NCBI GenBank assembly: GCA_031262595.1
Contig: JAISHI010000007.1
Location: 1 to 48,168, forward strand
DNA from: Christensenellaceae bacterium
Lineage (GTDB): Bacteria; Bacillota; Clostridia; Christensenellales; UBA1242
Direction: 5' to 3'
DNA: 48,168 nt
The notes beneath the pieces are model-generated. The model had not been told where the DNA came from. It ran no database searches and saw only the letters and a list, made by a program, of their open reading frames with translations. Position numbers and translations under genes: made by a program. Shown here piece after piece: positions 41,901-44,979 of this stretch (positions are counted from its first letter, which is position 1; every line of letters starts with the position of its first letter).

Positions 41901-43049
41901 TTAATAGGTTTGCATTCCGCTTATTGCCTCGGCGATTAGGGCATCGAAATCGAGTTTCGCTTCTTCGGCGATGACTTTATTAAGTTTCGGTTTGATTGCG
42001 GGGTGGGTTGGGACGAAAACGGTACAACAATCGATAAAGGGTTTTATGCTTTCCTCGAACGAGCCGATGCGTTTAGCGATCGCGATAATTTCCTGCTTAT
42101 CGAAAGTTATAAGCGGGCGCAAAATCGGCAATTTTTCGGCGCAAAAATTATTCGACGCGATGCCTTGAATCGTTTGGCTCGCAACTTGCGCGAGGTTTTC
42201 GCCGGTTATGATACAATCCGCTTTAATTTCGAGCCCAACTTTTTCCGCGATTTTAATCATGAAGCGGCGCATGAGTGTTATCATAAACTCGTCGGCGCAT
42301 TTCGAGTGGATTTCTTGTTGGATTTTCGTAAAGGGAACGACGAAAAGGCGCGCTCTGCCGCAATAACGCGAAACTATATCGCGCAAGTTCTTAACTTTTT
42401 CGAGCGCCTCGGGGCTCGTATAGGGCGGGGAGGCGAAATGGATGAAGTCGACGGAAAGCCCGCGTTTTGCCGCGAGATAGCCGGCGACAGGGCTGTCGAT
42501 TCCGCCCGAAAGCAGGCAAATCGCGCGCCCAGCCGTTCCAACAGGCAAGCCGCCGACCGCGCGCTCCTCCTCGAAATAAACGAACGCACTCTCGGCGCGG
42601 ATTTCGACGAAAAGCGTTGTTTCGGGCGCGGTTAGGTTGACTGTCGCGCCCTTGTTATTATCGAGAACGATTCCGCCGAGTATTTTCGCGAACTCGTTGC
42701 TGTTCGGGGAAAAATTTTTGTCCGCGCGGTTGACGGTTGCGCGGAACGAACCCGAGATTTTTAAGGCGGCGACATATTTTTCGATATTTTCTCGGGTGGC
42801 TGGTTTAATCTCGGTCGCAACGGATAACGAAACTATCCCGAAAGTCGATTTAACCGCATCTTTAACCGCGTTCTCGGCGGCGGCGGGATAATCCCGAACT
42901 AAAATCCGCGCGTCTTCGAGTAAAACTTTCGCTTCGGCGGTTTTCGGGTCGGCTTTTAGTTTATTTCTTAAATTCTCTCGGAGCGCACGCAAAAATAATC
43001 CCCGATTAGAGCCCTTAAGATGAATTTCGCCAAACCTTCCAATAATCAT
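41901..43049 (-). CDS. thiI: tRNA 4-thiouridine synthase
   Basis: 382 residues from ATG 43049 (MIIGRFGEIHLKGSNRG), the conserved family start; the longer frame from 43127 runs through the promoter. Domains: N-terminal ferredoxin-like and THUMP region (1-165), then the PP-loop adenylation domain with LLSGGIDSPVAGYLAAKRG (~178-196). It adenylates U8 of tRNA for thiolation. The C-terminal rhodanese domain of E. coli ThiI is absent, as in many Firmicutes, so the sulfur carrier must be another protein. TTGACA-18-TATCCT ends six bases before the ATG. Confidence 0.93.
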   Translation of the reverse strand: MIIGRFGEIHLKGSNRGLFLRALRENLRNKLKADPKTAEAKVLLEDARILVRDYPAAAENAVKDAVKSTFGIVSLSVATEIKPATRENIEKYVAALKISGSFRATVNRADKNFSPNSNEFAKILGGIVLDNNKGATVNLTAPETTLFVEIRAESAFVYFEEERAVGGLPVGTAGRAICLLSGGIDSPVAGYLAAKRGLSVDFIHFASPPYTSPEALEKVKNLRDIVSRYCGRARLFVVPFTKIQQEIHSKCADEFMITLMRRFMIKIAEKVGLEIKADCIITGENLAQVASQTIQGIASNNFCAEKLPILRPLITFDKQEIIAIAKRIGSFEESIKPFIDCCTVFVPTHPAIKPKLNKVIAEEAKLDFDALIAEAISGMQTY

Positions 43050-43055
43050 ACGGAA

Positions 43056-43085
43056 AGGATAACTCGCTCGGCGGCGGTTTGTCAA
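43056..43085 (-). promoter_or_regulatory. thiI promoter, leaderless spacing
   Basis: On the minus strand: perfect TTGACA (43085-43080), 18-base spacer, TATCCT (43061-43056), then six bases to ATG 43049. The -35 box lies inside the left copy of the 21-bp direct repeat. Confidence 0.7.
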
Positions 43086-43093
43086 GGCGGGGG
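43073..43093 (+). repeat. 21-bp direct repeat, left copy
   Basis: Ends in GCGGTTTGTCAAGGCGGGGG, identical over 21 bases to 43916-43936. The two copies bracket the poly-G-promoter cassette. This copy carries the thiI -35 box on the minus strand. Confidence 0.85.
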
Positions 43094-43120
43094 TGGCGTT
43101 AAGAAATTTTAAAAAAACAC

Positions 43121-43150
43121 TTGACAAATTCGTGGGGGGGGGGCTATACT
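43121..43150 (+). promoter_or_regulatory. Promoter with poly-G spacer (possible phase switch)
   Basis: TTGACA (43121-43126), 18-base spacer that contains ten consecutive G (43134-43143), TATACT (43145-43150). Gain or loss of one G would change the spacer to 17 or 19 and alter promoter strength. An AAAGGAG site precedes ATG 43190. Confidence 0.75.
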
Positions 43151-43189
43151 TAATTTCAATAAGTATTATTTTAATAAAAGGAGAGAAAA

Positions 43190-43882
43190 ATGAAACTTAC
43201 AAAAATGACAGAGGATCTTAACAAGGAGCAAATACCGGACTTTATTCAAGAATATATCGATAAAAATCCAGGCGCGATTGGTCCGGAACTTCTTAAAATT
43301 ATGGTGGATTTCAATAAAATTACGGAAGCACTTAAATGTGGCGATTTGTCCTTTTACGAGGAATACAATGGTAACTTTAGAAGAGAAAATCTAATAATGG
43401 ACGGCGTAAACGAGTCCGAGGCAGAAGCCGGTTATTGCATTAGAGAGTTCGCCGCTTCTACATATAAAGGTCTTAATGAATTCCATGTATGTTATTCACT
43501 TCATAGGAAAAGGTCTTCCGCGGAACAAGGAGCCCGGGAAGATGACGATAGTATGTTCTGGTTTTCTGAATGCACAATTCTCAATGAAAAAAGGGGCGGT
43601 CCATTCCAGCGTTTTAGTATAATGTATTCACCGAGGAAGTCTGATCCGAGTAAGCCTAGGCGGTGCTATGAATTTAATTGCCCTATTATCGCTAGCGCGC
43701 CATATTATTATCCTGATACCCGACCATATAATTTTTCTGATGCTCAGCATAATAATGAAATTATGGCGCGTTTGCGAATAATGAGTGAGGACTTATCAAA
43801 TATTTATAACGAGAAACAGCGACAAGACCGAGAAAGGTCTAACGCTCGCATGCAAGAAGCCGTAAACTCGCAGGATAAATAA
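43190..43882 (+). CDS. Uncharacterised protein under a poly-G promoter
   Basis: 230 residues, no recognised family. It is hydrophilic, with no signal peptide or membrane helix. A helical N-terminus (MTEDLNKEQIPDFIQEYIDKNP) is followed by a mixed region rich in Tyr, Arg and Glu (CYSLHRKRSS, FQRFSIMYSPRK, YYYPDTRPYNF) and a C-terminal helix LRIMSEDLSNIYNEKQRQ. Codon use is less GCG/CGC-rich than thiI or asd, in line with a foreign origin. The gene plus promoter is bounded by 21-bp direct repeats. FNKI and LRIM segments are shared loosely with the 2545-3567 protein. Good Shine-Dalgarno, unlike the flanking leaderless genes. Confidence 0.75.
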   Translation: MKLTKMTEDLNKEQIPDFIQEYIDKNPGAIGPELLKIMVDFNKITEALKCGDLSFYEEYNGNFRRENLIMDGVNESEAEAGYCIREFAASTYKGLNEFHVCYSLHRKRSSAEQGAREDDDSMFWFSECTILNEKRGGPFQRFSIMYSPRKSDPSKPRRCYEFNCPIIASAPYYYPDTRPYNFSDAQHNNEIMARLRIMSEDLSNIYNEKQRQDRERSNARMQEAVNSQDK

Positions 43883-43915
43883 CGTCAAAATAATAGGCTA
43901 GACGCCCGATTGGCG

Positions 43916-43936
43916 GGCGGTTTGTCAAGGCGGGGG
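43916..43936 (+). repeat. 21-bp direct repeat, right copy
   Basis: Identical to 43073-43093. This copy carries the asd -35 box on the plus strand. Confidence 0.85.
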
Positions 43937-43951
43937 CGCGCGGCATATAGT
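43922..43951 (+). promoter_or_regulatory. asd promoter, leaderless spacing
   Basis: TTGTCA (43922-43927), 18-base spacer, TATAGT (43946-43951), then five bases to ATG 43957. Confidence 0.7.
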
Positions 43952-43956
43952 GAACT

Positions 43957-44979
43957 ATGAGGATTGCGGTTGTTGGCGCAACGGGGCTTGTTGGGCGGAA
44001 GATTTTAGAGGTTTTGGGCAGGCGCGCGGGGCAGAAATTAAAACTCTTCTTGTTCGCTAGCCCGGAAGAGAAAGGAACGCCTATCGAATTTCGCGGACAT
44101 ACATATAAAACCGAAGTTTTAAGCGTGGCGCGGATAAAGAAAATTCGCGTTGATTTCGCGCTTTTTTCCGCTGGGGCAGAGGTTTCGCGCGTTTGGGCGC
44201 CGATATTCGCTGAGAGCGGCGCAACCGTTATCGATAACAGCACCGCGTTTCGAAACGACCCCGAAATTCCGCTCGTTGTTCCCGAGATTAACTTCGACGC
44301 GATAAAGCCGACGGATAAAATCATCGCGAACCCGAATTGCTCGACGATTATCGCCGTTTTGGCGCTTAGCGAAGTTCGGCGGTTATTTGGTTTAAAGCGT
44401 GTCCTTTATTCGAGTTATCAAGCAGTTTCGGGCATGGGAACGGCGGCCCTCGATGACTTTTGGAACGGCGTAAACCGCGCGGTTAAGTTTCGCGCTAACG
44501 GAATTAAAGAACGGGGCGCGCCGAAAGTTTTTAAATACGAAATTTTTAATAATTTAATTCCGCAAATAGATAGTTTCACGGCGAACGGCAATACAAAAGA
44601 AGAGGAGAAGATGATTAACGAAACGAGAAAGATTTTAAACGACGCGAACCTCAAAGTTACGGCGACTTGCGTTAGGGTTCCGATTGAGAACGGGCATAGC
44701 GTTTCGATAAACGCGGAATGCGAGCGCGAAATTGATATCGGTAGACTTCGCGAGGCTCTCGCAAAAACGAAAGGCGTAGTTTTATTAGATAGCCCTGAGG
44801 ATTTTCTTTTCCCGATGCCGATTTTCGCGAACGGGCGCGACGAGGTTTTTGTCGGGCGGTTGCGGTTAGATAACTCCGCACCTAACGCGCTTAATTTCTT
44901 CGTTTGCGGCGACAATATCTTAAAAGGCGCCGCGCTAAATGCCGTTCAAATTATGGAGAGGCTCGCGACATATAAATAG
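43957..44979 (+). CDS. asd: Aspartate-semialdehyde dehydrogenase
   Basis: 340 residues. Reduces aspartyl phosphate to aspartate semialdehyde with NADPH, feeding lysine, diaminopimelate, threonine and methionine synthesis. GATGLVGRKIL is the nucleotide loop, NPNCSTI carries the catalytic Cys, SYQAVSGMGTAAL follows, and PIENGHSVSINAECER holds the catalytic His. Full length. No ribosome binding site; the message is predicted to be leaderless. A 52-residue membrane protein starts two bases after its stop. Confidence 0.95.
   Translation: MRIAVVGATGLVGRKILEVLGRRAGQKLKLFLFASPEEKGTPIEFRGHTYKTEVLSVARIKKIRVDFALFSAGAEVSRVWAPIFAESGATVIDNSTAFRNDPEIPLVVPEINFDAIKPTDKIIANPNCSTIIAVLALSEVRRLFGLKRVLYSSYQAVSGMGTAALDDFWNGVNRAVKFRANGIKERGAPKVFKYEIFNNLIPQIDSFTANGNTKEEEKMINETRKILNDANLKVTATCVRVPIENGHSVSINAECEREIDIGRLREALAKTKGVVLLDSPEDFLFPMPIFANGRDEVFVGRLRLDNSAPNALNFFVCGDNILKGAALNAVQIMERLATYK

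Follow-up and report, generated by a model that had tools for sequence, protein, structure and literature searches.

What is the role of an unbroken run of ten guanines lodged between the two boxes of a bacterial promoter? The question is raised by a 48,168-nucleotide stretch of DNA, hereafter the window, which is contig 4 in the draft genome (0.81 Mb, 83% complete) of an uncultured gut Clostridium with a small genome. We judge, with good confidence, that the G10 tract is the element prone to slippage in a porA/tp0126-type promoter contingency locus, which belongs to a phasome that extends through the lineage.

Anatomy of the promoter and of the orphan gene

The promoter lies between two divergent genes and precedes a gene for an orphan protein. 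The features of the region are as follows.

41901 to 43049, reverse strand: thiI, the divergent neighbour
43073 to 43093, forward strand: left copy of a 21-nt direct repeat, holding the -35 box of thiI (reverse strand)
43121 to 43126, forward strand: -35 box TTGACA, a consensus match
43127 to 43144, forward strand: promoter spacer of 18 nt, read from the sequence as AATTCGT-G10-C
43134 to 43143, forward strand: G10 tract, where slippage presumably takes place; it belongs to the twelve tracts of at least eight Gs in the genome
43145 to 43150, forward strand: -10 box TATACT, a consensus match
43178 to 43189, forward strand: ribosome-binding site of the GGAG type and the gap to the start codon
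43190 to 43882, forward strand: orphan gene (ATG at 43190; 230 aa), whose protein is the presumed phase-variable product
43916 to 43936, forward strand: right copy of the 21-nt direct repeat, holding a -35-like box before the semialdehyde dehydrogenase gene
43957 to 44979, forward strand: aspartate-semialdehyde-dehydrogenase-like gene, the downstream neighbour

The sequence-only reading had placed TTGACA and TATACT 18 bases apart, with a run of ten Gs between them, ahead of the gene at 43190, and these coordinates are exact. The pair is the top sigma-70-like match within 43000-43960 (11 of 12 positions), and the predicted transcription start would give the mRNA of the orphan gene a 5' leader of about 33 nt. 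That G10 is the only long G homopolymer of the window was also correctly observed: it is the sole G/C run longer than six, the runner-up being a run of six. Its ten Gs exceed the cut-off of at least seven G/C residues for a hypermutable length (PMC6321876). The one length known for this tract is that of the assembled allele of one genome.

The same reading had suggested that a 17-nt spacer would be better than the present 18 nt, which finds little support in the host. Its ordinary TTGACA-TATAAT sites have spacers of 16 nt (six sites), 17 nt (four) and 18 nt (six), so that 18 nt is not clearly sub-optimal. For the assembled 18-nt allele, a state of ON or partial ON is likelier than OFF.

The product was rightly described as uncharacterised. 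No homologue of the orphan protein was found in phage records, nor any relative in 309 genomes of the family apart from one paralogue in the host genome itself, and comparison with Pfam and with the PADLOC defence models returned nothing credible. A PUMA hit was weak, falling under its cut-off, and was discarded. The protein has no domain and, by eye, no evident signal peptide; its single-sequence structure prediction reached a pLDDT of 39. The paralogue (C8:19563 onward; L034:1501-2289) shares 56% identity with it over the first 63 residues, and the region upstream of this paralogue contains no G run. The exact window promoter is absent from the viral contigs searched.

Promoter and orphan gene together are bracketed by the exact 21-nt direct repeat. 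Insertion of this unit into a shared divergent promoter, with each neighbour keeping one copy, would explain the repeat. In the 18 loci of relatives that were checked, thiI was not found next to the dehydrogenase gene. A mobile cassette with flanking repeats was rejected as a general rule, since among the eleven genes with such promoters the repeat is found at the window gene only.

Long G tracts in the host genome and in its lineage

An unbiased search of the host draft genome for eight consecutive Gs returned 12 tracts of at least that length. All except one are preceded by a -35 box and followed by a -10-like box that stands before an open reading frame, with spacers of 16-20 nt; the -35 box is TTGACA at each of these eleven promoters, save for one TTGACT.

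C4:43134, G10, promoter tract of the window
C5:7011, G11, promoter tract
C5:21542, G9, promoter tract
C8:8404, G11, promoter tract
C8:54007, G9, promoter tract
C16:15188, G9, promoter tract
C16:17336, G8, promoter tract
C17:11557, G10, promoter tract
C19:7705, G9, promoter tract
C21:48349, G8, promoter tract
C29:4411, G8, promoter tract
C6:47706-47715 (L235:2707-2716), G10, twelfth tract, inside a lipoprotein gene that it splits into two frames

The genes behind the eleven promoters encode signal-peptide-like proteins, lipoprotein-like proteins, an amino acid permease and orphan proteins. The signal-peptide-like proteins at C5:7011 and C8:54007 have near-identical starts. At the twelfth tract, an open reading frame with a lipoprotein signal stops just past the Gs, and a 942-aa frame with a Listeria-Bacteroides repeat and an HEFGH motif continues in another frame, an arrangement that has the layout of a putative translational phase switch. 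With eleven tracts in promoters and one at an in-gene frame switch, every host tract of at least eight Gs therefore sits where a change in length would matter.

Two of the promoters, at C16:15188 and C19:7705 (L230, L232), are followed by a start codon only about 6 nt past the -10 box, and their transcripts may be leaderless. The promoter on C29 (L234:1941-2870) precedes a protein that resembles, by eye, an outer-membrane beta-barrel, which is unexpected in Clostridia; the composition of this locus matches the window, and contamination is not obvious. Contamination of the draft was likewise rejected as a source of the tract-bearing contigs, the base composition at all tract loci resembling that of the window.

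The arrangement was then followed across relatives with the pattern TTGACA-N3-11-G8-N0-3-TAT, the controls being the reversed pattern and a version with poly-C in place of G. The pattern is present in 37 of 147 family genomes, representing 22 of 42 genera, while neither the reversed pattern nor the poly-C version has a single match in the same 147 genomes. For the order, 31 of 200 genomes have a match; of 249 genomes drawn across the phylum two do, one of these being the host. Among the matches listed, the named genomes include many gut Clostridia and Bacilli as well as some Saccharibacteria, Treponema, Helicobacter and Streptobacillus; the arrangement is thus not confined to the order, and it probably arose more than once. 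Outside the family, two poly-G promoters lie close together in Streptobacillus notomytis (L118) and in the records L115 and L090.

In the relatives, the products of genes behind poly-G promoters include LRR_5/BspA, beta-helix and collagen-like proteins, and lipoprotein-type N-termini are numerous among the products; such proteins are the usual cargo of phase variation. Three genomes (G166, G155 and G143; L186-L200, L213-L217) contain families of large surface-type proteins in which each copy has its own poly-G promoter. The upstream DNA is near-identical among these copies, several of which lie at contig ends.

Loss of the mismatch-repair protein MutS was considered as a cause of slippage and rejected. 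MutS is present in 138 of the 147 family genomes and in the host, where any slippage therefore does not depend on its loss.

Spacer length, tract length and the competing readings

The relation between tract and spacer was analysed over 83 distinct sites of the family and 183 sites of the family plus order. The length of the G run is anticorrelated with that of the non-G spacer part preceding it (-0.58 in the family, -0.46 in the family plus order). Total spacer length has a variance about half of that seen after shuffling, and none of 3000 shuffles gave a value as low, the search pattern limiting the total spacer to 22 and shuffled totals above 22 being left out. This compensation is strong evidence for a constraint on spacing, although the sites are related by descent and hence not independent.

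Comparison of tract lengths across related genomes, as the sequence-only reading had proposed, revealed variation. Among ten promoter sets of relatives sharing the same -35 box, non-G spacer and -10 box, eight vary in G count (for example 10/11/12, 9/10/10, 11/11/12 and 12/12/12/13). Judged from these assembled alleles, the differences between identical-flank copies appear to be the footprint of slippage. Single differences may be assembly errors, some copies lying at contig ends, but this is unlikely as a general explanation because the differences recur across seven genomes.

Replication slippage in the window would add Gs to the G10 tract or remove them, and the altered count would shift the distance between the -35 and -10 boxes, which is 18 nt in the assembled allele. 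The changed distance is expected to alter how strongly the orphan gene at 43190 is transcribed, and the outcome would be a population mixed in its expression. The eleven promoters and the C6 lipoprotein frame switch would together form one phasome built on G runs, a trait enriched in the family and order of these small-genome gut Clostridia. The anatomy of the promoter, the genome-wide set, the enrichment in the lineage, the compensation between spacer parts and the G-count differences among identical-flank copies support this, and the last four favour the porA-like phase-variable promoter originally suggested for the window.

The orientation of the tract counts against it. Throughout the family the non-template strand carries the run as G without exception, never as C, which spacing alone does not predict. 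An extended -10 motif has a G directly before the -10 box, and a G in this position is one possible reason for the one-sided orientation.

The orientation also fits a different reading, according to which poly-G does mark phase-variable genes but its length works through a regulator-binding site or the shape of the DNA instead of the -35/-10 spacing. There is a precedent in tprL of Treponema pallidum (PMC7864442), and the spacers of the family peak at 18-19 nt in the best-box reading, not at 17 nt, the ordinary TTGACA-TATAAT sites of the host peaking at 16-18 nt. This reading is nevertheless unlikely: the tracts sit squarely between the two boxes, and the compensation that holds total spacing points to spacing itself. 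A related possibility, equally tentative, is that a G run of this single orientation, directly adjoining the -10 box, is the hallmark of a promoter class in the order. A sigma factor or a G-tract-binding regulator would read the run, and slippage would tune the gene set by recognition together with spacing.

Unlikely, too, is that the run is a fixed promoter element and not a switch, kept for its shape, for the G that it supplies ahead of the -10 box or for the binding of a regulator, its length differences being drift within a tolerated range. The exclusive use of G in the family, the constrained total spacing and the position of the run, which in 127 of 183 sites leaves zero bases before the TAT of the -10 box, would all suit such an element. 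It is harder to reconcile with identical-flank copies that vary in G count, with the remaining long host tract at an in-gene frame switch and with a cargo that resembles phase-variable loci, and runs of this length are regarded as hypermutable in other bacteria (PMC6321876). A chance or miscounted run in promoter-like sequence is very unlikely because of the empty reversed and poly-C controls in 147 genomes, and 11 of the 12 long host tracts lie in promoter spacers, even though homopolymers are error-prone in assemblies and a G/C run of at least ten arises in 0.3-1.7% of windows simulated with Markov models of order 1-3.

Comparison with known phase-variable systems

Most known cases of homopolymer-driven phase variation come from pathogens, among them Neisseria, Campylobacter and Treponema, while the type best described for gut commensals and Clostridioides is DNA inversion (PMC11868660). 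The slippage-prone promoter proposed here uses a mechanism that is already known; its scale, its lineage and the one-sided orientation of the Gs appear to be new, and no description of poly-G promoter sets in these bacteria was found in the open-licence literature. The finding points to an order of uncultured gut Clostridia with genome-wide poly-G promoter switches, many of them before surface-type and orphan proteins. Such promoters would offer a route to the host-facing genes of organisms beyond the reach of culture.

Long G/C tracts are the main hypermutable repeat of Campylobacter and Bifidobacterium (PMC6321876, PMC9187656), and the host resembles both in this type of repeat. The pilus switch of Bifidobacterium is, in contrast, an in-gene frame switch (PMC9187656), whereas 11 of the 12 tracts described here are in promoters; further G tracts in promoter spacers of Bifidobacterium are mentioned without detail (PMC9187656).

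Closer in architecture is porA of Neisseria meningitidis, in which a G run between the -35 and -10 boxes sets the output through spacer length (PMC3899988, PMC7864442). The window promoter has its G run in the same position. Host and gene are unrelated, however, and here eleven promoters of a 0.8-Mb genome are involved, with a tract that is always G in the family. Neisseria also has intergenic poly-C tracts, as at fetA (PMC5953494), in contrast to the exclusive use of G in this family of Clostridia.

In Treponema pallidum, tp0126 carries a poly-G between the -35 and -10 boxes and performs best with a spacer of 17 nt, and several genes of this one small genome have promoter poly-G tracts (PMC7864442). 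The host shares with it this occurrence of several such genes in a small genome. For tprL, tract length has been argued to act through a regulator site or DNA shape (PMC7864442); its tract overlaps the -10 region, whereas each of the eleven promoters here has its tract within the spacer. The cargo differs as well, consisting of spirochaete outer-membrane proteins in Treponema and of orphan, secreted and membrane proteins in these Clostridia.
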